Source: a virus. From it: DNA of 23,649 bases. Shown here one piece after another: positions 2,693-19,195 of the stretch. The translations under genes and the position numbers were made by a program. Below the pieces are notes generated by a model. It did no database searches. It saw only the letters and a list, made by a program, of their open reading frames with translations, and had not been told where the DNA came from. The stretch covers positions 1 to 23,649 of the IMG/VR virus record IMGVR_UViG_3300037963_001894. One strand, given 5' to 3'. Positions within the stretch are counted from its first letter, which is position 1; every line of letters begins with the position of its first letter.

Positions 2693-5600
2693 CTAATCAA
2701 AGCCAAGTGTGCTACCTCCTGTTGTTGATGTTAATGCGTAATGTAAAGTTTTTTCTTTTGGTATTAAATTATCTATAAGCACTTTACCTGTTAGTGTTTT
2801 ATTTATATTGCGTGTAAATAGAGTAGTAAATCCTTTATTTTGTTGTAGATTGAGTTCACTTAATCTTTCTGCTATTGATTTATTAAATGTTCCTACTGTT
2901 ATTTTAGAGATTGTTGACATTACATTTTCTATTTCAAAAACAATATAATCATCTGCAGGAATATTATGATTTGGGAAATCTAAGTGTATTATATCTCCTG
3001 CCTCCATCAATTCAAATCCGGTTCTTTCCATTGTTAATGTAATCTTTTTAAAGTCCTTTCTATGAACTTCCAATATAGAATGCGCTTTAATTCTGGCTTC
3101 TTCAGTATTTTTTATATTAGCGTCTAAATGCCTTATTGTTCTTTTAATTTTACTAGGTATTTCGACTTCTGCTTTCACATTATCTCCTATTACTACTATT
3201 TTATTTGCTCTATCGAAAAGGCTTTTATTGCTATCTACCGAAATTAAATTAGAACCGTCTCTATATTTTAAACTAAATCTTCTTTTGCTAGAATAGTTCT
3301 CCATGTCTTTTATTTGTATTTTATCATCAACGAATTTGTAGTCTAAATTTTGTTTAGCCCCTAAATAATTAAGAGAGGAAAACACATCTTGCTCGTTAAA
3401 ATTAGTATTTAGAATAAATGGTTTGCGTTCATATTTGACCAATTCATCATTCTTTTTTGGTTTATAATAAATATTGCTAACCGAGAGACTTGACCCTGCA
3501 TTCGCAGTAGTCACCTTGCCTATAAGCCTGCCGTCTTGGTTATAGATAATATCACCTAATGCGATATTACTATGCGAAGTCGTCAATGCTATGCTTGTTC
3601 CTGTAGTATCAGAATCAACTATATTACCAGTATAAGTTATGTTTTTAATTGTATTATCTACCTTTATTTCGTTTTCTTCCAAGATTTCTACCATTGCTTG
3701 TTCGGCATCTGTTCCTATTGAAATAGTAGTTCCGATGAATGCTTCTATAGGGTTTTTATTATCTGGTGTTCCACTTGATTCTATATTAAATATTTCACCA
3801 AAGGACACTACACCATATCCTGTTAATTTACCATCATATGAAAATCTAAGATTATTTGTTGTTTTCGATACAATTAGATTCTTTTCTATTTTATTTTTAC
3901 CATCTGTTATAAAACATTCTAATGAATCTCCATCATTAAATGTTGCCTTTGCATCATTCAAAGTTCTTCTATCTATATGAGTATTAAATGTATCTATATC
4001 TAGTAATAAATACATAGCATATAATCCTTCTTGATATGTTAGATATTCAGTTTCTGCTTCTGAGCCACCAGAATCTTCTTCTGTAGTTGTAAAATTTTGA
4101 GTAATAACATCATATTTAAGACCTGTATCAAACATTTTATTTAATTCAAAATAATCAGGAGTGTCTTCAAATGTTGTTTCTGATATTCTCATTAACCTAA
4201 AAGTATATCCGACTGTAGTAGTATTTATATCATTATCTACCTTTATGTTATGTCTTGTATAATTTCCATTTGTATCGGTAGTATGGGAAGTAATTTTTCC
4301 TATATAGATTGGTTCACCTTTTGGAATTTGATTAGTTGAAACATATTTATTAGGTAAATAACTATGCGGGGTATCATCGGCATCAGTAAAATCTCCATCG
4401 CTGTTAGCATCTACACCATCATTTATTTTGTCTGAAACTAAATAATAGCCTTCTAAATTAGGGGCAAAGTCTAACCAATTATTGTTACTATTATCGTCTA
4501 ACGTAATTCCATTAGAACTAGTTATATTTTTACCATAGTTTGTTGATGCGGTTAAAGTTAATCTTGGTTTAATAACCGTCTGTGCTTGGAACAATTGACC
4601 TGAGTTATCAGAAGCGGTTTCGTGAGTTGCTACTCTACCTCCAAAATCTCTATCATTCGGGCTTTCAGAATAAATATGTTTAACAGTTTTTGTTCCGCAT
4701 AAAGCGTATTTATCACCAGGATGAAGTTGCATTGTAATATTCTTTGCTCTTTGTTCTAAATTCATCGTAAATAAATCAGCATAAGAAATCCATTTTGCTA
4801 AAGTACCATGCGTTCCATCTCCTACTATTGCAGATGTAGGTTTAGTAAAGGCAGTTTCATCATTTTGCGTTGATGTTTTCATGCCTTTAAATAACATAGT
4901 AGAATCACCAAACAAATTAACTTTATTACTTATCTTATATTGTGGGCTACCGTCTTCTACTAGAGTATTTGCCGGAGTATCATCTCTTGTTGTGGGATAT
5001 GCTAAAGCATTAATAATCTTAGACGGGTGATACCAAATTGGGTTAGTAGTTCCTGAATCCCAATGTTTTGCTTGGTGAAATAAAGAATAATAATCGTCAT
5101 AGTTACCCTCTCCACTATCATATTCCATACTAGAAATAATGGGTATAAAAGTATTTTGTGCATCAAATTTATCACCACCACTTTCCAGTAAACGAAATTG
5201 AAGATAGTCTTTATTTATTCCTGGAACAATAATATAATTATATATCATTCTAAAATCATTATTGTTTAATGTATCCATTCCCCAATCAGGGTCAGCATAA
5301 AGAGTAAATAGTTTTTGTCTAACTACATATATTTCATCTTCATATGTAACGCTTAACATATCTAAAGCATGAATTGTAGATGAACTACCAGCACCAGTAT
5401 TGCTTGTTATTCTTCCAACAATAGTTCCGTCATTTTTATATATTACATCATCAATAGCAAATGTAATACTACTGTCTAAAGTAGCACCGCCTATACCATT
5501 GTCTGTTATAGAACCCTGTGCTATTATTTTCATTCTAGGATATTTAAATGTAGTAATTTTATCAAAAACATCATTATCAGGAAGACTTTCGTAATCAACA

Positions 5601-8600
5601 GGATTCATATGCCAATCAAATGTTGCTTCTACTAACCTCATTACCCCAAATCTCTTTAATTGATTTGTTGTTTTATTTGATGATGTTATCTCTATTCTTT
5701 CATAATCTGAATCTCTATAATCTGTTTGTGTATTAGTTCCTGTAAAATTCTCATGACTTACAGATGAACCATCAGAACCTTCATTCTTTAACATAATACC
5801 ATAATTATCAAAGTCTTTTGTGTTAAATTGTAAATTATTCCATCTCAACTTTGAATCTGGATAAATATCTCCTGTTGCTAATAGTTGATAATTTTTACAT
5901 CTGTAATCTATATTTTCTAATTGATTCCAATGTGTTGTTATTTTTGCTGAATCCCAATACTCAACAGGTGCTAACTTATTTCCTGTTAATCCTAAATCTG
6001 TTCCAGACCATATATTTGAACCAGACAAAGGCTTTAATCCTGGAGTTAAATCTCCACTAGCAGGGGTTTGTTTTTCTCCTAATGTATTTACTTTATACAT
6101 TGGAGATGCTGCAGTTATTCTTTGGGTTTTACTAGAATTATCATAAACAGTATCATGTGTTTCTTTTATTGTGCCTTCTTGAAATCTTTGAAGACCCCAA
6201 TATCTAAACGTATTTTCTGGAGTATAAAATGTAGTAGGGTCATTTTGTAATGAATGTATAAAACCCCCAGAAGGTATATTTGAATTTACCATATATAAAT
6301 ATCTCATATCAGACCCATAACCATTAGAATCAGATGTATTTGTATCTATACTTCCTAAAACTACAGGGAAAGAAGGGGCTAATCTTATTGATGTGTTTTC
6401 ATCTCTTGATGTATTGATTGATAAAACATTAAAATACATAGAAGAAACAGTATGTATTTTGTTATATTCTATAGACGCTTTGTTTTCTCTAGAAGGTTTT
6501 AAAGCAAAGGCAGAATCTGAATTTTCTTCTATTGATTTAATTTTAGATATATCATATCCTATTGTATTATCTATATCATAAGAACCTGTTGCTGATGTAT
6601 TTAATAAATTGCTAAAACTAAAAGATGAAGAATATTCTATTTTTTCTCCGTCATTAAATATTAGACCGCTTGAACCAACACTACTAAAATCAGTAGGGTG
6701 TTTAGTTTGTTTAATATTAGCAGATATAGCCTTTGTTCCAGTTAGGTAGTTTTCTAAACCTCCAAATGTCTTAATATGATATAATGTATTTGTTCCTGCC
6801 TGTCCTTTAGTAAAATCAAAACCTCCTAAAGTTACTGCTGTATTTGAACCACTAGCAGTATCAGATACTGCTTCTCCTATAAGTTCACCATTACTGTTTA
6901 AAAACAAATCATATTTTTCAACCGCTACAGTACCTGTAAGAGTTAATACTCCAGCACTAGTAATACTATGCCTAGTAACTGTTGTTGTTGGTGCATCAAA
7001 AACAGGAGCAATAGTTGAATAAATAATATCATTAGACCTGTTTAAATTCTTATTAATAGTTCCATTCAATAATGCAGCAGTATCATCTCTTCCTGTTATT
7101 GTATATGTAATTATACCATCTTGGTTTTTAGATTCTATATCTTCAACTAGTCCTTTAAATACATCCTTTTCTATACAATATGCACCTTTGTAATAATACA
7201 TATAATGTACTGGTGTAGGTTGGTATAATACTTTAGTTGTTAATAACTTTATATGTTCATGTATCTTATCACCATAATTTATATCAATATCCATACCATA
7301 AAATTCTGGATTTAATAAAGTTAATTTCTTTTTGTATAGTGAATTTTCTTTTGTAGATATTGTATTTTCATTCATTGTAAGCCGCTGCAATGTTTTAGTT
7401 CCGCTTATAGTTTCATAAACTGCCTCTGTATCTATGGGACATTTAGTATTAAGTCCACCATTAAAGGGCATTAAATATACATCTTCACTCGTAAATATAT
7501 CTAAATGAGATTGACTTGCAAGTGTAGTCCATTTTTTATCCTTTATATCTTTTTTATGAGTTACTGCAATAACTTGTTCATGGTTAGCAGTTGCACTTAT
7601 TGTTCCAATTCTATAATAAGTATCTTTTATTCTAATAATACTATCAGCATTTAAAACGTCATTTAATCCATAGTCCTTGTTTGGTGTCCAATCATCTGAA
7701 TCAGTTTCATGCATATTTATTAAAATGATTTGAAAACTTGGGCCTGAACTTACATAATTACTTCTAGCCGGATATGGTAATTTTATTTCTTTAGTATTTG
7801 ATGTATGAATAGAACTAGATATAGTATATTTAGAATTTTCCTTTACCTTTAAAAATTGTATTCCATTATTATCTAAAAGTTTAGTAGTGGCTAACTGACT
7901 AATCTTATTTTTAGGACTATTTACATTGGCTTCTAATATAGGATTTATAGCATTATTTTTCCTATTAGATTTTTTATAATGTAAATATCTTATAGGGCCG
8001 GATAGATTACCATGAATATTATTTGTTTCAGTATTTGAATTTAAATCAGAAGAATGCCTTCTTGCGTTTCTAAAAGCATCATTCCAATATGCTGGGTTAA
8101 AAGAATATGTTCCATCTAATTCATAATCAGTAGGGCTATTAGAACTTCCTAATTCTCCATCTTTAATATGCATATTATCTACTAAAACCGCATCTTGGTT
8201 TAGTGTTCCATAATCTTTTATAGCAGTTCCAAATTCTCTTTCTGTTCTAAATACAGATTGATGTATTGTTCTTCCAACATATAACGTTTCGCTATTTAAC
8301 GCAGTTATTCCATTTATTGTTTCTCTTGCATAATCTAATGTAATAGTATTGCTTGTTGTAGCAGTAACATTACCTAAATAAGTTTTATCAGCAGAAAAAA
8401 CACTTTGGCCTTTTAATAAAGTAGCACCCACAGGATTCCAATTAAGAGTAGCAGAAGCAAATTGAGTATCCGAACTAGTATTATAATAACTACCTTTGGG
8501 TGTAAAATCTGTATCCCAACATCTACAAGTAGTTAGATTATATTTAGTGTTGAAATCTAATTGGTTTTCATTCTGAAGTCTATCATTATAAAAATACCAA

Positions 8601-9352
8601 GTAGGTCTTGAAACTTCATTAGAACCGTCATATTTGTCTGTTATAAAATCAAAATTAGTATCATCAGAAGTATTAGGGTTTATCTCATTACCATCACCAC
8701 GAAGACCATAACTTACAGCAATAACACTAGTATCATTAACTGCTGGCCCTTTATATATTTCAAAATTAGTGTTCTTTGATAGTGCTTCTGGGTATTTAGG
8801 TTCAAATTCAAACCCATCACCATATTCATCAAAACTAATTATATCAGTTATTTTTGCAAAGTGTGGTCTTGAAGCAGGGTGCTTATCAGAAGACCCATGT
8901 GATATTTCAGGATTAATTAATACAAAGTAATCATAAGAATCTAAATCCATATTTATACTAGAAGAACCAATTAATAATTGATTAGAGAATGTGTTGCTTT
9001 GTGCATCACTTGTTGAGGAGTGTGTTCTAATTTTAAATGAAGCAGTTTGTTGTTTATTAGTACCGTAATATCCAATATCTACTGCATTGTTAGAAGGAAA
9101 TACTCTATTAACAATAGCAGTATTGCTATCATTAGAAATTCTACCATTATAATGATTATTTCTAATCTCGAAAAAATTAGCAGAAACTCCGTTGTGTTCT
9201 TCTGCTATGTTAGTACATTTAATTATGGGATTAACTGATGTGTTTTTAAATGCTAAATTTCCTGTAAAAGCATTACCTTTATTGGCAAAAGTATAGTCAA
9301 CATTTGCATTACTATATTTATCGGAATTCATAACGTAAACATAACGTTCCAC
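2693..9352 (-). CDS. Giant tail hub / tail tip protein (2219 residues)
   Basis: This is the largest gene of the window. It starts with GTG at 9352, four bases into a TAGTG overlap with the previous gene, and GGTGAT stands 6 bases upstream. Two regions look like baseplate-hub (gp27/gpJ-like) domains. About residues 670-780 end with GLVEDIESKNQDG and a YTITGRDDTAALL motif. About residues 1980-2170 contain NLDYKFVDDKIQIKD, KIVVIGDNVKAEVEI and MEAGDIIHLDFPN followed by DDYIVFEIENV. The roughly 1,200 residues between them and the 660-residue N-terminal region are Asn/Asp/Thr/Ser-rich, beta-type and unassigned. A short module like NxDGxxIGxVT recurs near residues 315, 812, 1305 and 1935. The protein probably closes the tail tube and displays adhesion domains. 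No peptidase or lysozyme motif was recognised. Confidence 0.8.
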   Translation of the reverse strand: MERYVYVMNSDKYSNANVDYTFANKGNAFTGNLAFKNTSVNPIIKCTNIAEEHNGVSANFFEIRNNHYNGRISNDSNTAIVNRVFPSNNAVDIGYYGTNKQQTASFKIRTHSSTSDAQSNTFSNQLLIGSSSINMDLDSYDYFVLINPEISHGSSDKHPASRPHFAKITDIISFDEYGDGFEFEPKYPEALSKNTNFEIYKGPAVNDTSVIAVSYGLRGDGNEINPNTSDDTNFDFITDKYDGSNEVSRPTWYFYNDRLQNENQLDFNTKYNLTTCRCWDTDFTPKGSYYNTSSDTQFASATLNWNPVGATLLKGQSVFSADKTYLGNVTATTSNTITLDYARETINGITALNSETLYVGRTIHQSVFRTEREFGTAIKDYGTLNQDAVLVDNMHIKDGELGSSNSPTDYELDGTYSFNPAYWNDAFRNARRHSSDLNSNTETNNIHGNLSGPIRYLHYKKSNRKNNAINPILEANVNSPKNKISQLATTKLLDNNGIQFLKVKENSKYTISSSIHTSNTKEIKLPYPARSNYVSSGPSFQIILINMHETDSDDWTPNKDYGLNDVLNADSIIRIKDTYYRIGTISATANHEQVIAVTHKKDIKDKKWTTLASQSHLDIFTSEDVYLMPFNGGLNTKCPIDTEAVYETISGTKTLQRLTMNENTISTKENSLYKKKLTLLNPEFYGMDIDINYGDKIHEHIKLLTTKVLYQPTPVHYMYYYKGAYCIEKDVFKGLVEDIESKNQDGIITYTITGRDDTAALLNGTINKNLNRSNDIIYSTIAPVFDAPTTTVTRHSITSAGVLTLTGTVAVEKYDLFLNSNGELIGEAVSDTASGSNTAVTLGGFDFTKGQAGTNTLYHIKTFGGLENYLTGTKAISANIKQTKHPTDFSSVGSSGLIFNDGEKIEYSSSFSFSNLLNTSATGSYDIDNTIGYDISKIKSIEENSDSAFALKPSRENKASIEYNKIHTVSSMYFNVLSINTSRDENTSIRLAPSFPVVLGSIDTNTSDSNGYGSDMRYLYMVNSNIPSGGFIHSLQNDPTTFYTPENTFRYWGLQRFQEGTIKETHDTVYDNSSKTQRITAASPMYKVNTLGEKQTPASGDLTPGLKPLSGSNIWSGTDLGLTGNKLAPVEYWDSAKITTHWNQLENIDYRCKNYQLLATGDIYPDSKLRWNNLQFNTKDFDNYGIMLKNEGSDGSSVSHENFTGTNTQTDYRDSDYERIEITSSNKTTNQLKRFGVMRLVEATFDWHMNPVDYESLPDNDVFDKITTFKYPRMKIIAQGSITDNGIGGATLDSSITFAIDDVIYKNDGTIVGRITSNTGAGSSSTIHALDMLSVTYEDEIYVVRQKLFTLYADPDWGMDTLNNNDFRMIYNYIIVPGINKDYLQFRLLESGGDKFDAQNTFIPIISSMEYDSGEGNYDDYYSLFHQAKHWDSGTTNPIWYHPSKIINALAYPTTRDDTPANTLVEDGSPQYKISNKVNLFGDSTMLFKGMKTSTQNDETAFTKPTSAIVGDGTHGTLAKWISYADLFTMNLEQRAKNITMQLHPGDKYALCGTKTVKHIYSESPNDRDFGGRVATHETASDNSGQLFQAQTVIKPRLTLTASTNYGKNITSSNGITLDDNSNNNWLDFAPNLEGYYLVSDKINDGVDANSDGDFTDADDTPHSYLPNKYVSTNQIPKGEPIYIGKITSHTTDTNGNYTRHNIKVDNDINTTTVGYTFRLMRISETTFEDTPDYFELNKMFDTGLKYDVITQNFTTTEEDSGGSEAETEYLTYQEGLYAMYLLLDIDTFNTHIDRRTLNDAKATFNDGDSLECFITDGKNKIEKNLIVSKTTNNLRFSYDGKLTGYGVVSFGEIFNIESSGTPDNKNPIEAFIGTTISIGTDAEQAMVEILEENEIKVDNTIKNITYTGNIVDSDTTGTSIALTTSHSNIALGDIIYNQDGRLIGKVTTANAGSSLSVSNIYYKPKKNDELVKYERKPFILNTNFNEQDVFSSLNYLGAKQNLDYKFVDDKIQIKDMENYSSKRRFSLKYRDGSNLISVDSNKSLFDRANKIVVIGDNVKAEVEIPSKIKRTIRHLDANIKNTEEARIKAHSILEVHRKDFKKITLTMERTGFELMEAGDIIHLDFPNHNIPADDYIVFEIENVMSTISKITVGTFNKSIAERLSELNLQQNKGFTTLFTRNINKTLTGKVLIDNLIPKEKTLHYALTSTTGGSTLGFD

Positions 9353-10404: not shown

Positions 10405-11145
10405 TCAGAATGTTGTGTTGATAAAGTCTGAAACTACTGTTGATGACTGAATGAAAGTCATACTAAATTTAATATTAGGAGTTTCTGCCCCAGCAATATC
10501 TGTTGAGAAATCACTTATGAATCCTCTAACTCCTTCTATTTCATCATTAGTATTTTGTAAATAATCAAACGTTCCTTTTGTTTGACCGTAAGAAAATGAC
10601 TTTACATCATATGTTCTATTAGCAAAATGGAATGGTATAAGAGGTAAGTCCTCTAATGGAGTATCAGCATTAATAACTGAATTTGCTGTAGGTGGGTCTG
10701 AAGCAGAACTTCTATAATCAAAATTATTATCTGCTCTACTAGGAATTAACATAATAAGTTTACTTATGTTTTGGTCTTCATGAACAAAGGAAGAATCTAC
10801 ATAAGAATGAATTAATTGTGCTACTTCATAAGAAGTTAATTTAACTGTTTTGGGTGTTTCGTCTTGTCCGCCTTTGAACTTAGTTACGCTTTGTTCATAT
10901 ATAATTCCATTAATGGTTATTTGTTTTCTTGCTGCTCCTAAGTCCATAACTATGGTAGAAGATTCACCAGCAATAACACCAGAGAATGGAATATCAATGG
11001 GGAAAGCAGATTTTGTTGTGCTTACAGAAATACTTTCGCATAATAAAGATATTCTGTTTGTAGAAATAGTATTAGCATTAGATGGACTTTCAGCAGATGC
11101 TCGTCTACCTAATTCTAACATTACTCTATTTGTTGCTTCTACCAT
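10405..11145 (-). CDS. Distal tail (Dit-like) or baseplate protein candidate
   Basis: The gene encodes 246 residues. Its ATG overlaps the tape measure stop by one base (TAATG). No family is recognised with confidence. Visible features are PIDIPFSGVIAGESSTI followed by MDLGAARKQITINGIIYEQ (about residues 47-85), a pattern of a beta-sandwich that carries internal axis information in distal tail proteins, and a C-terminal strand region with IKFSMTFIQSSTVV. Its position directly after the tape measure gene and before the lectin and hub genes is where distal tail proteins are encoded in long-tailed phages. The functional call therefore rests mainly on gene order. Confidence 0.6.
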   Translation of the reverse strand: MVEATNRVMLELGRRASAESPSNANTISTNRISLLCESISVSTTKSAFPIDIPFSGVIAGESSTIVMDLGAARKQITINGIIYEQSVTKFKGGQDETPKTVKLTSYEVAQLIHSYVDSSFVHEDQNISKLIMLIPSRADNNFDYRSSASDPPTANSVINADTPLEDLPLIPFHFANRTYDVKSFSYGQTKGTFDYLQNTNDEIEGVRGFISDFSTDIAGAETPNIKFSMTFIQSSTVVSDFINTTF

Positions 11146-12602
11146 TAGAACCTAGCCCCCGTTGTTGCAGTTCTATTCATTCTAAGATTGATTTCTCTAG
11201 CAACCTTATTTGCTATGTCCTTTATTTCGGCATCAGAAGCACCCACTCTTCCACTCACATTTACATTAATCACCGTACTTCCTCCCATTCTTCTTGATTG
11301 GTTATTTGTATAAACTCTTGAACCTGCTGGTAAAGAAACTAATTCTGGCCCTCTTTCTCCTACTAAAGTCATTCCTTCATTTACAACTCCTCCAGTAGCC
11401 CTCCCTAAAACAGCATTAGCAAACGCTGCAACAAAAGCAACTATTAAGAATGGTATCCAAGTACCACTCATAAACCAAAGTATTCCTGCTGCTATAAGAG
11501 AACCTATCATAACAATTTGTAAAAAGCCTCTAGCAATTGCTTTAACTGAATTCCAACCATCTAATCCATTTTTATATATATCAGTAATAGCAGTTATCAT
11601 CGGGCCTGCAACTAAAGCAATCAACCCACCAAGAACACCTATTAATAATGCTCCTGCCCCAAATACAATAGTACCAAATAATCCTGCGATAGTGAAACCA
11701 AGCCCTTCTAATATCATTGCTAAATCTCCACCAAATAACCCTCTTACCATTAAACTAATCCCGTCAACTAACCAACCAAGAGATTGCATCATATATCCTA
11801 ATGCTTCGCTTGTTTTGCCCCAAACTACCTTTAAAGCAGGCATTGCATTCTTGAATACTTGAAATAAAACATAAAACACAACAAACCCGAATGCTAAAAA
11901 TTTAAGAGCCGATAATGCAAACTTACCCAAAGCCTGTAAATTTTTAGGTATGCTTTTAATCATATTTGTAATTTGAACCTTTTTCTTTATAAAATACTTT
12001 CTAAGGGTGTCGTCTTCTGCAATACCGAATTTATCATATTGTTCTTGTAACTGCTTTTGAAATTCTCTTCTTTTCTTTATTTGTTCTTTTCTTTTTTGTA
12101 TTGCTGCATGTTGAGGAGATAGTAATGTTCTTATTTCTTTTAATACATATGTCATTTCTTTATCTGTTTCTGGTGCTTTATCCCCAAAAATAGCCTGTTC
12201 ATATAAACCAAAATCCTTTATGCTATTTGCTATTTGCTCGTATTCATAACCAACATCAACAATACCACTTGCTAAATCTTGAAAATAACCTTCTTCAAAT
12301 AATTGGGTTGGCATAGCGCCTTCCATTATTCCTAAACTTTTTAATGCTTTCATATTTTTTATTAATGCTTTAGAAGATTTTTCTTGTGATTTATAATACA
12401 TTTCGGCAACATCGAAAACTGCTCTTATCTTATTCTGTATAGACCAAAATCCTGGAAAAATACCAGAAGATAATCTACTAATTACAGTTAATCCTTTTGA
12501 TTTAGCAAGACCAGTTAATGCTTCTTCTAACCCCGATGCTGTATCTGCAACTGCTTCTGCTGCTTCAGCAATATCATATAATTCTCTTGCGGGGTCTGAC
12601 AT
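11145..12602 (-). CDS. Tape measure protein (short)
   Basis: The product is 485 residues from the ATG at 12602, chosen because GAAGTGAT lies 4 bases before it. A GTG at 12611 overlapping the upstream stop is the alternative and would add three residues. The N-terminal half is helical and charged, with a Lys/Arg/Gln-rich coiled segment near residues 168-190. Hydrophobic stretches follow near residues 227-249, 300-335, 358-378 and 381-399. The C-terminus has the tape-measure signature GGVVNEG, TLVGERGPELVSLPAGSRVY near residues 404-431, then a Gly/Val/Asn-rich end. Tape measure proteins set tail length and enter the host membrane during DNA ejection. At about 0.15 nm per residue this would specify a tail near 70 nm. 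It follows the tail chaperone, as expected. Confidence 0.9.
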   Translation of the reverse strand: MSDPARELYDIAEAAEAVADTASGLEEALTGLAKSKGLTVISRLSSGIFPGFWSIQNKIRAVFDVAEMYYKSQEKSSKALIKNMKALKSLGIMEGAMPTQLFEEGYFQDLASGIVDVGYEYEQIANSIKDFGLYEQAIFGDKAPETDKEMTYVLKEIRTLLSPQHAAIQKRKEQIKKRREFQKQLQEQYDKFGIAEDDTLRKYFIKKKVQITNMIKSIPKNLQALGKFALSALKFLAFGFVVFYVLFQVFKNAMPALKVVWGKTSEALGYMMQSLGWLVDGISLMVRGLFGGDLAMILEGLGFTIAGLFGTIVFGAGALLIGVLGGLIALVAGPMITAITDIYKNGLDGWNSVKAIARGFLQIVMIGSLIAAGILWFMSGTWIPFLIVAFVAAFANAVLGRATGGVVNEGMTLVGERGPELVSLPAGSRVYTNNQSRRMGGSTVINVNVSGRVGASDAEIKDIANKVAREINLRMNRTATTGARF

Positions 12603-12607
12603 AAATA

Positions 12608-13182
12608 TCACTTCAATTGTTTTTGTGCTTTATCCATTTCTTCTTGTTCTATTTCAGTAGCAACTGATTGTATTATTAACATTTTTTTCATTAATGATAC
12701 TGGAGTGTGTAATGCATCTACAGGATTAACATTATATGCTTTGCAATAACTATAAAACATAACATCAGTTATTATATTCATATCATCTACTTTGTTTCCT
12801 TTAAATGCTCTTTTGTAATCTATTCGTTTCCCAATTCATCCCCCATTAAATCCGTAAATGGATTAGGTAGGATTTCTTTCAATTGGCCGCCAACATATGG
12901 AGAGAGTCTTAATAACTCTATTCCAGATAACTGCGGTTCTGTTTTTTCTACAAAGTTTTCAACCATGAATCTATACATTGCATTCATGTCCAAATCCAAA
13001 CTTTGCGTTTGTGCATCTAGTTTCATAACACTAGATAAGGCTTTTTCTACTTCAAGCCAAGTTGGTTCTTTAACCCAAACCTTTAGGTATTCTTCTCTAT
13101 CGGGTGCTACTTTAATGTAATGGCACTCCGTTTCTACTTGTGCAAATAGCACATTCTTATCATTTAATATTGGTTTTTCCAT
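12608..13182 (-). CDS. Tail assembly chaperone, -1 frameshift fusion (G-T type)
   Basis: This is the long form. Residues 1-119 come from the upstream frame, then a -1 slip at GGGAAAC (12826-12832) continues into an open frame for 72 more residues ending at TGA 12610-12608, 191 residues in all. The extension (RIDYKRAFKGNKVDDMNIIT at its start, ending EEMDKAQKQLK) has no strong start codon of its own; an internal ATG at 12781 is the only alternative. In lambda-like tails the short form (G) and fusion (GT) coat the tape measure and recruit tail tube subunits. The extension stops 6 bases before the tape measure ATG, in the normal order. The annotation has a programmed ribosomal slippage, so the listed span is not a single uninterrupted frame. 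Confidence 0.85.
12820..13182 (-). CDS. Tail assembly chaperone, short form (G type)
   Basis: The unshifted product is 120 residues, from an ATG preceded by GTAGGTGGAAAA (ribosome binding site AGGTGG) to TAG at 12822-12820. The sequence is acidic and alpha/beta, with a central EYLKVWVKEPTWLEVEKAL segment and a C-terminus DLMGDELGNE, the usual size for a lambda gpG-like chaperone. Identification rests on its place between tail tube and tape measure genes, its size, and the slippery heptamer just before its stop codon. It is the first gene after the long non-coding gap and may have its own promoter. Confidence 0.82.
   Translation of the reverse strand: MEKPILNDKNVLFAQVETECHYIKVAPDREEYLKVWVKEPTWLEVEKALSSVMKLDAQTQSLDLDMNAMYRFMVENFVEKTEPQLSGIELLRLSPYVGGQLKEILPNPFTDLMGDELGNE
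12826..12832 (-). promoter_or_regulatory. Programmed -1 ribosomal frameshift site GGGAAAC
   Basis: The heptamer is in phase as G GGA AAC (pattern X XXY YYZ) with the zero-frame TAG only one codon downstream (12822-12820). Lambda uses the closely related GGGAAAG at the same place in gene G. The -1 frame is open for a further 72 residues. No obvious strong stimulatory hairpin was seen downstream. Confidence 0.85.
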
Positions 13183-13396: not shown

Positions 13397-15535
13397 TTAC
13401 CCCTGTATAATCCATTTACCAGTATATTGGCAGGTGTCTAAAGTGCGAGCCTGAGCAGTTAGATTTACCTCAAGTGGGCCTTTGTCTGTTGGAAATGGCA
13501 TATCAACAGAAGTTGTAATATAATCATTAAACTTAAACACAATCTTATCATTATCTGATTTAGAAAACTCTATTTCAAGTAACAAATCATTACTAGATGT
13601 ATCTGTTGTTTCTGTTTGTTTTCTTAACTCATCCCAAATTGTTCTATCTGTAATCATTAAGTTAAGTTGTATTTCATATGTTCTTTGTCCTGCAGTATGA
13701 GCAGCAGTAATTGTTCTGTCATAATTTCCTACATATTTATGTGGGGTTAATGTATTTGCTATAGTAATACTACCACTCTTAATTCTAGCAAGAGTTTGCC
13801 CATACATTTTGATTGTACCATCAGAATACATGTATGGTACATTATCATTTACATCTGATGGATAATTGAACAATGAAGTTGTGGTTCTAACTTGTCTCTT
13901 TGGTTTATAGTTATCATTAACATCATGTGCTTTTCTTGCTTGAGCAGATACAGAAGCCTTTACTTCCATTCCTTCTTCAAAGTTTAAAGTTAAAGTATTT
14001 ACTTGACAACCTGTATAAACCTTAGACATTACTTTTTGTTTATCGCTATCTTGGAAATATTCAGCATCTGTGATGTTTCCTTTTTCATTTGTTACTTCTA
14101 AAGCAAAAGAAGGTAAATCACCAGAATTATTTTCTGTAAATGTATAAGCAACTGGGCCTGTAACTTGTTTATAATCTGCTAAACCACCTGCTCCTTTAAC
14201 TGCTGTAAATGTAGCATTTGTAGAACCTGTTGTAATATTAGCAATAGTTGGTGTTCCTGTATAACCACTTCCACCTGCAGTTACTGTTACTGCGTCTATT
14301 TCTCCACCTTCAACTAATTGAGTAACTGTTAATGGGGGTGAACTTGCTTGTGTAACTGCACCAACTGCACCACCATTAGTTGATTCAACAATAATTTCAT
14401 CACCTGAAGCAGTTGCAGTTAATCCTGTTTGTGCGTTAATAACAGCAGCAAGTTTTGTAGCAACTGTTTCTGCTCCATCACCTGTGTTTATTGTACTAAC
14501 TTCAACAACCGTTGCTCCACTTACTCCGTGTGAAGGAACAGATTCACCTGCATTATCTATATCAAACCAAAATACATATTTTATTGTTGTAGAAGCAGCA
14601 GCCTCAATTTTAATCCATTTATCATCATAATTTGCTCCAACTACAGTAACAGTAGTAATTTCATGTTTATCTTTAGTTAAGGTATAACTTGCTGCAGCCC
14701 CGCTACCACTACCACCAGAAAATGATAATGTTTGAGATGCACTAAAAGGAATACCTGCACCATCATCTGTAACTGTAACTGAAACAACTTGATTGCTATC
14801 TGTTACACTAGAAATAAATGGAGGATAAATTTTTGTATCTTCTACACGATAGATTTTACTACCGCTAGATGCAATAGCAAAAGAATTGCCGTTATGTCCT
14901 GAATCAATAGAAGATAAATTGTCTGTTCCTAAACTACCAGCAGTATAACTCATTTTTCCTAATGCGTAATAAAGCCAAGAACCATTATTTAGAGATACAT
15001 CAATAGATGCTTCTCCGATATCTTCTGTTCCATGAAATTGAAAACCAAAGTTTCTTGTTCCACCTAATGCTAAGTTCAATTGTTTTAGTTGTGGTGTAAC
15101 AGTTGGTGCAGTAAATGATTCTACTAATCCTAACCAATTATCTGATAAAAGACATTGTTTTCCATCTATGGCCTGTGCATGAATAGGCGCACCAAATGCT
15201 AAAACTGTTATTTTATATTTATCAGTTGAAACTGTTGATAAAGCCTGTGAAAAGGTAATAGAGTTGGAATCGTTACTTTCAATTAATAATATTTGGTCTT
15301 CATCTGTTTGGTATACATTGCTAGAATTATATTTTTCTAATTTAGCCATACAACCTCTATAAATATTAGTCTCTAAATTAGGACTATTATTTGCCAATTC
15401 AACCGTTCTTTCATTATTTGATGTTGCACATAATTTATGTGTATTATCACCAAAATGCTCAGACAATTTTAAATCCATTTCTGGAATTAAAGTTACTGAC
15501 GCTCCGCTTCCTGTATATATCTCATTACTTACCAT
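13397..15535 (-). CDS. Major tail tube protein with inserted beta domains
   Basis: The gene encodes 712 residues, starting at an ATG preceded by GGTGAAAAATA. The N-terminal part (about 1-230, with FGFQFHGTEDIGEASIDVSL and WLYYALGKMSY) and the C-terminal part (about 470-712, with TLTLNFEEGMEVKASVSAQA and a final barrel ending in EVNLTAQARTLDT) look like the two halves of a tail tube fold. Between them, about residues 237-455, are Gly/Ser/Thr-rich inserted domains. One carries YVFWFDIDNAG, VATKLAAVINAQTG and IIVESTNGGAVGAV. Another carries AVTVTAGGSGYTGTPTI, a motif common in phage virion decorations. The protein is much longer than a plain tube protein (150-250 residues), so it probably shows surface decorations along the tail. 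It lies just upstream of the chaperone pair, as a tube gene should. Confidence 0.78.
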   Translation of the reverse strand: MVSNEIYTGSGASVTLIPEMDLKLSEHFGDNTHKLCATSNNERTVELANNSPNLETNIYRGCMAKLEKYNSSNVYQTDEDQILLIESNDSNSITFSQALSTVSTDKYKITVLAFGAPIHAQAIDGKQCLLSDNWLGLVESFTAPTVTPQLKQLNLALGGTRNFGFQFHGTEDIGEASIDVSLNNGSWLYYALGKMSYTAGSLGTDNLSSIDSGHNGNSFAIASSGSKIYRVEDTKIYPPFISSVTDSNQVVSVTVTDDGAGIPFSASQTLSFSGGSGSGAAASYTLTKDKHEITTVTVVGANYDDKWIKIEAAASTTIKYVFWFDIDNAGESVPSHGVSGATVVEVSTINTGDGAETVATKLAAVINAQTGLTATASGDEIIVESTNGGAVGAVTQASSPPLTVTQLVEGGEIDAVTVTAGGSGYTGTPTIANITTGSTNATFTAVKGAGGLADYKQVTGPVAYTFTENNSGDLPSFALEVTNEKGNITDAEYFQDSDKQKVMSKVYTGCQVNTLTLNFEEGMEVKASVSAQARKAHDVNDNYKPKRQVRTTTSLFNYPSDVNDNVPYMYSDGTIKMYGQTLARIKSGSITIANTLTPHKYVGNYDRTITAAHTAGQRTYEIQLNLMITDRTIWDELRKQTETTDTSSNDLLLEIEFSKSDNDKIVFKFNDYITTSVDMPFPTDKGPLEVNLTAQARTLDTCQYTGKWIIQG

Positions 15536-16269: not shown

Positions 16270-17361
16270 TTAATCAATCAAATAAACCAAGTTTTTCTTT
16301 CCGTCTATTATTTCTTTTGCTTCTGCAACTAAAATTTCATGTTTCTTATTAATATCAATATTTCCTGTTTCTGCAATCAGTATAGTATTATCATCTGTTA
16401 AGAGTATTTCTGCAGCAACTAGTTTAGTTGTTGCTTCGTGAATAGCAGCAGGTATTCTTGAACTGCCTCTAATATAAGTTATTCTGACAGAATGTTGAGT
16501 TAAATAAGGATAATTAGTCCTGAAAAATAATTTACCTTCATCTCTTATTGTCCAAAATTCTTCATTTCTTCCGCCTGTTTCGTTATCAACAAAGGAAAAA
16601 GTTTGACTTGTTCCATCAATAGTTTCAACTAAATTACAAATTGTTCCTGCATCAGATGGTAATTTAGAGGAAATATAAACAGATTTTCCATCTTCTGTAG
16701 GACAAGCATAGAAAAAATCAGAAATATTTCCTGAACCTGTTGAAGCAGATGTTGATTTTGCTGATGTTTGTTGTGTAAAATCAGCAGTAGCATCAGGGAA
16801 TCTTTCATTAATCGCAGCACATATTTCTAATACTGTTGTTTTCTGCCCAAATTGGTCATAAAAACCATTAGCAGTGTTTTCTGTTAAAGTAAAAGAAACG
16901 GTAACAGGACTACCAATATCGAATCTTAAAGTATATGCTGCAGTTTGTGCAGTTGTAGGTGGTGTGTAAATACAAGATGCAGAAGCCATATCCACATAAT
17001 TATCTCCTTGCCAGACTTCTAATCTTAAAATTTTTCTAACCTTTTCACTATTCATTTGAATAAAACCAACATAATCCTTATACGGAATCACAGGATATTG
17101 GCTTTGAATAAATGGGTCAAAATTGTGAACTTCTTTTTCAATGATTTCAGGTCTATGTGATACCTTTAAACTGTCATCTATTTTACCTTCCACCCTTTTT
17201 ATAATTTTACCAATTGCTGATAAATCTGGAGTGGTAGAATTAGAAAATGCTCCACATTGCAATAAATCAGATACATCAGTGTGTGTAGTATAATACCCTA
17301 TTCCGTTAGAATAGTTTGCTGCACTTCCTACTACATAATCACTTCTAGATAATTTCCCCAC
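16270..17361 (-). CDS. Head-tail adaptor (connector) with inserted beta domain
   Basis: The gene encodes 363 residues from a GTG at 17361 with GGAGGG about eight bases upstream; it overlaps the previous gene by 17 bases. The outer parts (about 25-125 and 265-363) look like a gp6/gp15-type adaptor: TDVSDLLQCGAF, IGKIIKRVEGKIDDSL (a helix that packs in the ring), FIQMNSEKVRKILRLEVW, then EFWTIRDEGKLFFRTNYPY, VRITYIRG and a C-terminal helix bundle with ATTKLVAAEILL. A domain of about 130 residues is inserted between them, with YTLRFDIG, TTVLEICAAINERFPDATA and GKSVYISSK, similar in pattern to one in the tail tube protein. The adaptor would dock under the portal. The portal itself is outside the window. 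Confidence 0.7.
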   Translation of the reverse strand: MGKLSRSDYVVGSAANYSNGIGYYTTHTDVSDLLQCGAFSNSTTPDLSAIGKIIKRVEGKIDDSLKVSHRPEIIEKEVHNFDPFIQSQYPVIPYKDYVGFIQMNSEKVRKILRLEVWQGDNYVDMASASCIYTPPTTAQTAAYTLRFDIGSPVTVSFTLTENTANGFYDQFGQKTTVLEICAAINERFPDATADFTQQTSAKSTSASTGSGNISDFFYACPTEDGKSVYISSKLPSDAGTICNLVETIDGTSQTFSFVDNETGGRNEEFWTIRDEGKLFFRTNYPYLTQHSVRITYIRGSSRIPAAIHEATTKLVAAEILLTDDNTILIAETGNIDINKKHEILVAEAKEIIDGKKNLVYLID

Positions 17362-19195
17362 CTAATTTTCCCTCCAATTTGTTTGTTTGTCTCATAATAT
17401 AATAAATAAAAGCGTTTAAATCAGAACTAAAGTTAGTAGAAGGCAATCCAGCATCAAGTATTCCTCTTGCCTTTTCTCTTGCTATTGTTTCTCCGCCTTT
17501 ATCTTTTGAATCTCTTACTTGAACCTTTCCTTGTTTGCTAGGTAATTTTAATTTTAAATTTTCTTGTTCAAGTTTACTACCTCTAGTTTCAAAGGATGGT
17601 CTAATTTCCCTTAATGGAGTAGCATCATATTTTTTACTTTCAAATTCATAATCTTTATCAACTCTAACTACATCTAAATAAGAATCTATTAGTTTCTTTT
17701 TATCTTCATCTGTAAGGTTTTTGGTACTATAAGACTGTCTATTTTTTTCAGCAACAAAAAAAGATAATATTAATGTGCTATCACTAGGAATAAGTAATTT
17801 CTTAAATACATCATTGAGTTCTCTATTATATTTTAATGCATCAAAATTTAGTTTAACTTCGTCTGGTGTTTTCCAACTTTCATCAATAAAGAATTGCCTT
17901 TCCGAATAAGCAGATTCAGATGTAGCACTTATTACTGAAGATTGCTCAATTCTAGCATCTCTTGTTATTTCTGCTCTAGTTCTTGCAGCAGACTTTCTTT
18001 GAAATAATAATTCTATATCATTATAATATTCTGATGGGGATTTATCTTTATTTTCTGGTAGATTTCTTTTGAAGTCTATATTCAATTGAACAAAATTAAG
18101 TAGGTCTTTATCTACAGGAAATGATGTAAATCTTTTACCATTTTTAAAATCTACATAAGTTTTATTTGATATTAAATTCTGTTCCTTAAGTTTTTCAAAC
18201 TTTTTCATTTCAATTTCAAAATCCCCTTCTTTAATTGCATTTCTTCTTTGTTCTTCTGTGTATCTAAGACCATCTTCATCAGAATCAAATGTTCCTTGTC
18301 TTAATATATCATTAAATTCATATATAGAATTTATTTTATCTTCTACAATTTCTGATTTAATGTTATTATCTGGATGAAATTTAAACTTACTAAATGCTTT
18401 CATTAATGAATTATAACTTTTTGCAATGTAAGAAAGACCTTGTTCTTGTGCAATTTCTTCAAATACTTTACCCATATCTATTGTTAATGTAAAAACAGTA
18501 ATATCTAATTCTAATAGCGTTTTTCTATCTGGTAACTTAACCTCCCATTTATATTTTCTATCATCTTTTTCAAAAACAATAACTCCTTCTATATCTTCTA
18601 AATTTTCTGTATCTTCATTTCTTTCATACTTACTGCTTTTGTGTCCTCTATCAACAAAGTATTGTAAAGCAGGATAATAAGGTAAGTCTCTTCTTATTGC
18701 TTGATTTATTTTAGCAGAAACCTCACCTTTTACATTAAAACTTAAGGCTTTTTGCCTACCACCAAGATTACTAAAATCTGATATTGAAGTATCTAAACCT
18801 TCTTTTTGTGTGCCTCTTATATTTGCACTAATCCATTTTTTGTTTTCGCTCCCAACATAAGGCTTTAATTTTAAAATTAAAGTTTCTAACGTCAGTTCTT
18901 TCATATATTTTTTTACAGAAGATAGATGTTTATCATATTCTTCTTTATTAAAATCAAATTCAGAATCATCATTAGCAATTCTTTCCATTAGACCAGAATC
19001 TAAATAATTCCCAAAATGGTCTTCAATTTGAGAATATAGACCTGATGAAACAGGCGAAGCAATATACTTCAGACAATACACCACAAGAGGATGTTTTTCA
19101 TCTGCTGGCAAATCAGCATCATCAAGTTTAATGGCTTCTCCTATCCCGTAATCTCTTCTATTCAAGGTAATATTAGAAGGGATAGAAATAGCCAT
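17345..19195 (-). CDS. Large charged protein of unknown function
   Basis: The gene encodes 616 residues from an ATG with GAGTGAGTTAA upstream. I recognise no family. It is rich in Lys, Glu, Asp, Asn and Ser, without signal peptide, membrane segment, cysteine motif or obvious repeats. It appears largely helical in the middle (EEQRRNAIKEGDFEIEMKKF, EKLKEQNLISN) and has a Lys/Arg/Glu-rich stretch near residues 540-580. The start MAISIPSNITLNRRDYGIG is followed by an acidic region. It lies between the Gln/Met-rich gene and the adaptor gene, in the same transcription unit, so a virion or assembly role is possible, such as a minor head, inner-body or portal-associated protein. This is inference from location only. 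Confidence 0.6.
   Translation of the reverse strand: MAISIPSNITLNRRDYGIGEAIKLDDADLPADEKHPLVVYCLKYIASPVSSGLYSQIEDHFGNYLDSGLMERIANDDSEFDFNKEEYDKHLSSVKKYMKELTLETLILKLKPYVGSENKKWISANIRGTQKEGLDTSISDFSNLGGRQKALSFNVKGEVSAKINQAIRRDLPYYPALQYFVDRGHKSSKYERNEDTENLEDIEGVIVFEKDDRKYKWEVKLPDRKTLLELDITVFTLTIDMGKVFEEIAQEQGLSYIAKSYNSLMKAFSKFKFHPDNNIKSEIVEDKINSIYEFNDILRQGTFDSDEDGLRYTEEQRRNAIKEGDFEIEMKKFEKLKEQNLISNKTYVDFKNGKRFTSFPVDKDLLNFVQLNIDFKRNLPENKDKSPSEYYNDIELLFQRKSAARTRAEITRDARIEQSSVISATSESAYSERQFFIDESWKTPDEVKLNFDALKYNRELNDVFKKLLIPSDSTLILSFFVAEKNRQSYSTKNLTDEDKKKLIDSYLDVVRVDKDYEFESKKYDATPLREIRPSFETRGSKLEQENLKLKLPSKQGKVQVRDSKDKGGETIAREKARGILDAGLPSTNFSSDLNAFIYYIMRQTNKLEGKLGGEII

Follow-up and report, generated by a model that had tools for sequence, protein, structure and literature searches.

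A putative lambda G/GT-type -1 frameshift and a Shine-Dalgarno-like element in the tail assembly chaperone gene of magrovirus-like viruses

Introduction

Does a short gene lying ahead of a viral tape measure gene encode one tail assembly chaperone or two? The question is raised by the sequence GGGAAAC, found just before the end of such a gene in a virus record (IMGVR_UViG_3300037963_001894, positions 1 to 23,649), the whole of which is called the window hereafter. This fragment of 23.6 kb has 32% G+C and carries structural genes only. The original prediction, made from these letters alone, was that a programmed -1 frameshift yields a long form of the chaperone, in an arrangement similar to lambda G/GT but with a variant heptamer, and in a virus that seems archaeal.

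In lambda, a single gene with the heptamer G_GGA_AAG gives rise to a short and a long chaperone ahead of the tape measure gene. Comparable heptamers are known from the chaperone genes of haloarchaeal viruses: G_GGA_AAC in HCTV-1, A_AAA_AAC in HCTV-2 and G_GGA_AAG in HVTV-1 and HCTV-5 (PMC5009743), to which Hardycor1 adds G GGA AAT (PMC7911831). In archaeal cells themselves, a 2021 review listed one reported -1 shift, that of fucA1 in Saccharolobus solfataricus (PMC8211752). Comparison of the window with its relatives indicates that its gene very probably makes two tail assembly chaperones through a -1 frameshift of the lambda type.

The shift site and its two reading frames

The short frame, or G part, runs from 13182 to 12820 (minus strand, as for all features of this locus) and encodes 120 amino acids. 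It is preceded by the Shine-Dalgarno (SD) sequence AGGTGG at 13192-13187, 7 nt from the register base to the ATG, which is also the commonest spacing at other starts. Its 3' end reads GAT GAA TTG GGA AAC GAA TAG. GGGAAAC, at 12832-12826, is therein in the X_XXY_YYZ phase, and a single sense codon (GAA) separates it from the frame-0 TAG at 12822-12820. Past the heptamer, 72 codons (RIDYK...QLK) can be read in the -1 frame before a stop at 12610-12608, and this extension, the T part, occupies 12826-12608. The sequence thus bears out both the phase of the heptamer one codon ahead of the stop and the 72 open residues that had been predicted to end near the tape measure start, 5 nt lying between the T stop and the ATG at 12602. 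Of the 17 ORFs on the minus strand that reach 100 amino acids, no other has both an in-phase heptamer within its final 30 nt and a long -1 ORF leading on from it, and none of 10,812 positions tested inside genes opened 72 codons in a wrong frame. The predicted marker peptides are EILPNPFTDLMGDELGNR for the -1 product and EILPNPFTDLMGDELGNE for the short form.

The gene sits between a tail tube gene upstream (13397-15535; PF18906 Phage_tube_2, E 5e-7) and the tape measure gene (11145-12602; phrog_1538, E 4e-7). For the latter, the ATG at 12602, with an SD GTGAT at 12611-12607, is preferred over the GTG at 12611, which overlaps the T stop codon. Farther downstream lies a 2,219-codon ORF (2693-9352, minus strand).

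Matches to the PHROG tail assembly chaperone families were obtained for the G part in 40 of 43 relatives (phrog_25860) and for the T part in 59 of 78 (phrog_9001); the window's own T, searched alone, had no match. Profile comparison related G to the chaperones of HCTV-2 (E 6e-8) and HVTV-1 (E 5e-6), whose deposited records both have joined chaperone forms annotated, and its AlphaFold model (pLDDT 84) matched the fold of the HHTV-2 chaperone (E 2.6e-7) and of Bacillus phage chaperones. T is modelled as a helical domain (pLDDT 96). Foldseek against the PDB returned nothing significant for G, the HK97 chaperone 2ob9 coming top at E 1.0, and no match for T. A tblastn search of a phage collection found none for the G protein or for the window ORF 17345-19195; the tape measure protein matched bacterial phages over short C-terminal stretches only. 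Judged by these family and profile matches, both halves are related to known tail assembly chaperones.

Relatives, conservation and host

Scans of viral contigs and genome contigs yielded 221 loci carrying both parts, window included, of which 146 are distinct; clustering at 85% nucleotide identity gave 79 groups. An in-phase A- or G-type heptamer stands at the end of G in every one of the 146. AAAAAAC (77) and GGGAAAC (39) are the most frequent, followed by AAAAAAG (13), AAAAAAA (7), GGGAAAA and GGGAAAG (4 each) and GGGAAAT and AAAAAAT (1 each). The -1 frame encodes T in 141 of these sequences, the -2 (=+1) frame in the other 5. In a tree built from G and T with the site excluded, A-type and G-type heptamers form two clades with one exception. 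The comparison across relatives, which had been proposed as a check, thus places the site and its phase on a conserved footing, and no relative had intact frames lacking a slippery heptamer, a case that had been named as one that would refute the prediction.

Relatives of about 95 kb encode a PolB split in two, a clamp loader, an ATP-dependent ligase, an ERCC4 nuclease and GroEL. Such genes appear in the ICTV account of the magrovirus family Aoguangviridae, whose genome map lists a tail assembly chaperone, and these relatives were compared with the Magrovirales features described there (about 90-110 kb, low G+C, own replisome; PMC10768690). They look like magroviruses, which are associated with Poseidoniales, and this gene content makes an archaeal host likely. 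The archaeal nature assigned to the virus is therefore supported indirectly, through its relatives, the window itself being a fragment of structural genes; its nearest long relative (49 kb) carries capsid, tail and ligase genes and no PolB within that part. The only genome-contig match was a virus-like contig (G+C 35.5%) in a Maricaulis MAG, which is most likely a misbinned virus contig and was for that reason dropped as host evidence. Two further observations concern individual genomes. One magrovirus-like genome (G015, loci L090-L094) has Pfam matches to an mRNA capping enzyme, an RNA ligase and a viral superfamily 1 helicase; in a contig of 184,733 bases (G007, locus L015), PolB matches fall into two sets separated by about 91 kb, so that it probably represents a dimer or two genomes joined in assembly.

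Selection on the site and on the -1 frame

Between the window and its two nearest relatives, dN/dS over T is 0.53-0.55 when read in the -1 frame, and the remaining two frames have values of 0.98 and 2.03. By this comparison the -1 frame of T, and no other, is coding and subject to purifying selection. Selection is also visible within the heptamer. AAC is the dominant second codon (63 of 79 clusters), and where the A-site codon specifies Asn, AAC is used in 63 clusters and AAT in 2, while elsewhere in the gene AAT is twice as common as AAC. Both G_GGA_AAN and A_AAA_AAA, when in phase, occur less often in other viral genes than in synonymous shuffles of them (ratios 0.32-0.65), suggesting a cost there. 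C_CCA_AAC is over-represented in the coding sequences of the relatives (10 versus 4.5).

A Shine-Dalgarno-like element upstream of the heptamer

An internal SD-like GGGGG, followed by ATGA, lies at 12844-12840, 7 nt 5' of the heptamer, and is predicted to pair with the archaeal anti-SD at -10.5 kcal/mol. Relatives carry GG[A/G]GG, usually followed by ATGA, and the distance of 7 nt is kept in 55 of 79 clusters with this strict motif and in 64 of 79 with the looser G[A/G]GG. The third base of codon -3 is G in 70 of 79 clusters: Gly is written GGG in 36 of 40 and Glu GAG in 34 of 37, codons whose general usage is 0.09-0.18 of their family, and at no other conserved Glu position does the share of GAG exceed 0.50. 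Binomial treatment of these codon counts takes related clusters as independent, and the tree provides a better guard: codon -3 goes from Glu to Gly or back at least 15 times, and its third base needs 4 changes. Mean anti-SD pairing is -10.8 kcal/mol versus -6.9 in synonymous recodings, and 0 of 200 recodings reach it. The codon usage, the tree and the recodings all indicate that the element is selected at the nucleotide level.

The spacing suggests how the element may act. The ATG starts of these viruses most often lie 7 nt from the same register. Where the shift takes place in the model, the frame-0 P-site codon is 8 nt from this register, and the -1 codon therefore 7 nt. The -1 P-site codon is thus placed at the commonest start spacing, so that the element may re-phase the ribosome directly. 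It would favour shifting by pairing, during translation, with the 16S tail of the ribosome. For -1 shifting in E. coli, the SD distance is 9-14 nt (PMC5009743); the 7 nt found in the window and in 55 of 79 clusters fall short of this dnaX-type range.

A predicted downstream hairpin among A-type relatives

Folds of the RNA 3' of the heptamer are more stable in the A-type clade than in synonymous recodings (mean z -3.0), and would give a hairpin with a 15-bp stem and an inner GGG/CCC helix. RNAalifold found no consensus structure in either of the two divergent clade alignments, and single-sequence folds averaged over the alignment were therefore used together with pair counts. These gave 118 double-changed cells, against 53.5 +/- 7.7 in shuffled and 38-58 in slid versions of the stem, the choice of which leans on the same sequences. 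As judged from this covariation, sequences of the A-type clade carry a downstream hairpin. Results for the G-type clade are mixed (mean z -0.9). No significant hairpin is seen in the window (z +0.57) or in the two relatives nearest to it (z +1.45 and -0.09).

Proposed mechanism and rival explanations

In the mechanism that we propose, most ribosomes would terminate at the TAG at 12822-12820 and release the short protein G. A minority would slip by -1 with Gly (GGA) in the P site and Asn (AAC) in the A site, re-pair on GGG AAA and continue to 12608, yielding the long fusion G-T. Pairing of the GGGGG element with the 16S tail would promote the shift, and the hairpin of A-type relatives would add to the stimulation. 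By analogy with lambda, G would bind the tape measure protein, and T would recruit tail tube subunits. Slippage, its efficiency and these protein roles are what we infer.

A few observations weigh against a -1 shift, namely the missing hairpin of the window, a spacing below the 9-14 nt of E. coli and the different framing of T in five relatives. One rival is a T made as a separate protein, from an internal start codon or by reinitiation past the G stop. An SD-like element before the end of G does resemble translationally coupled genes (PMC5009743), and some relatives, including the five just mentioned, have an ATG in T near the G stop. What stands 7 nt past the element, however, is the heptamer (AAA or GGG) and no start codon. 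The candidate ATG in the window (12781-12779), whose use for a separate protein had been named as a refuting case, has no SD upstream and is absent from the nearest relatives (L003/L218 and L002/L180); it was rejected as a start. Separate translation also leaves the in-phase heptamer of all 146 sequences unexplained, and we regard it as very unlikely.

Slippage of the RNA polymerase on a homopolymer, producing mRNAs of mixed frame with no need for a ribosomal shift, draws on the runs of six to eight A in many relatives. About one third of the distinct relatives, the window among them, nevertheless have GGGAAAN and no long run, and the X_XXY_YYZ phase and the preference for AAC over AAT follow the rules of ribosomal pairing; its probability appears slightly lower still. 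An assembly error or a pseudogene, in which G and T are one broken frame, would account for the frame break alone. As the same break recurs in 146 distinct sequences from many metagenomes, with T under purifying selection, this is the least credible of the three. On the grounds of conservation, phase and selection, we therefore rejected an internal start, slippage of the transcript and a sequencing error. The -1 frameshift into a long chaperone gains its support from the heptamers, the chaperone matches, selection in the -1 frame and the want of a conserved start for a separate T.

Relatives with T in the -2/+1 frame

The five distinct exceptions are L220 (with L050, L052 and L053; 464-567), L237 (4339-4442), L225, L219 (4339-4442) and L215, with the site sequence GAAAAAAAGGATGATTAR. 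Their T follows an A7G run with one base fewer than in the -1 relatives, and each of the five heptamers ends in G. Slippage by -2 on A7 is the somewhat favoured route to T: it allows full re-pairing of both tRNAs (AAA to AAA, AAG to AAA) in each of them, and the tree calls for two frame changes, hence apparently two origins, although branch support is modest. The alternatives are +1 slippage and reinitiation at an ATG overlapping the stop (ATGATTAR), whose position fits the latter. A -2 frameshift is known from a tail assembly gene of phage Mu, whose FS-gp41 gave a weak fold match (E 0.03); the slippery sequence of Mu is another one, and for the five relatives -2 is a candidate direction. That archaeal ribosomes use an internal SD, closer than in bacteria, to drive a -1 shift, and that -2 later replaced -1 in some lineages, is a scenario to which we give even chances.

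Known systems and implications

The lambda mechanism and the G_GGA_AAC of HCTV-1 make this a known type of frameshift. The lambda-like arrangement of the original prediction therefore stands, with a window heptamer that ends in C and an internal SD-like element as differences from lambda, while the novelty of the heptamer does not. The haloarchaeal viruses share the gene order, the position of the -1 site where G ends and the heptamers themselves, and G has profile matches with HCTV-2 and HVTV-1 and a fold match with HHTV-2. They differ from the present set, which is magrovirus-like and marine, with AAC as dominant second codon; HVTV-1 has GGAGG at 10 nt and HCTV-2 a weak SD match, in contrast to the fixed 7 nt found here. 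E. coli dnaX likewise combines an SD-like element, an A-rich heptamer and a downstream hairpin, as the A-type clade does, but in another gene and another domain of life, with the longer spacing; the window has no hairpin. In fucA1, archaeal ribosomes shift -1 at an A-rich heptamer, in this case in a host metabolic gene.

The original prediction had missed the haloarchaeal precedent, the SD-like element, the A-type hairpin and the -2/+1 relatives. What appears new is the GG[A/G]GG element 7 nt upstream of the heptamer, a dnaX-like signal in archaeal-type viruses, of which no description was found in the literature searched. No report of magrovirus frameshifting was found either, which is weak evidence as key magrovirus papers lie outside the coverage of that search.

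For these genomes, annotation by ORF calling alone misses the long chaperone. More broadly, well over one hundred distinct viral sites with evidence of codon-level selection can now be set beside the single -1 shift that the 2021 review accepts for archaeal cells (PMC8211752), and they raise the question whether archaeal ribosomes, while translating, detect internal SD elements through their anti-SD.
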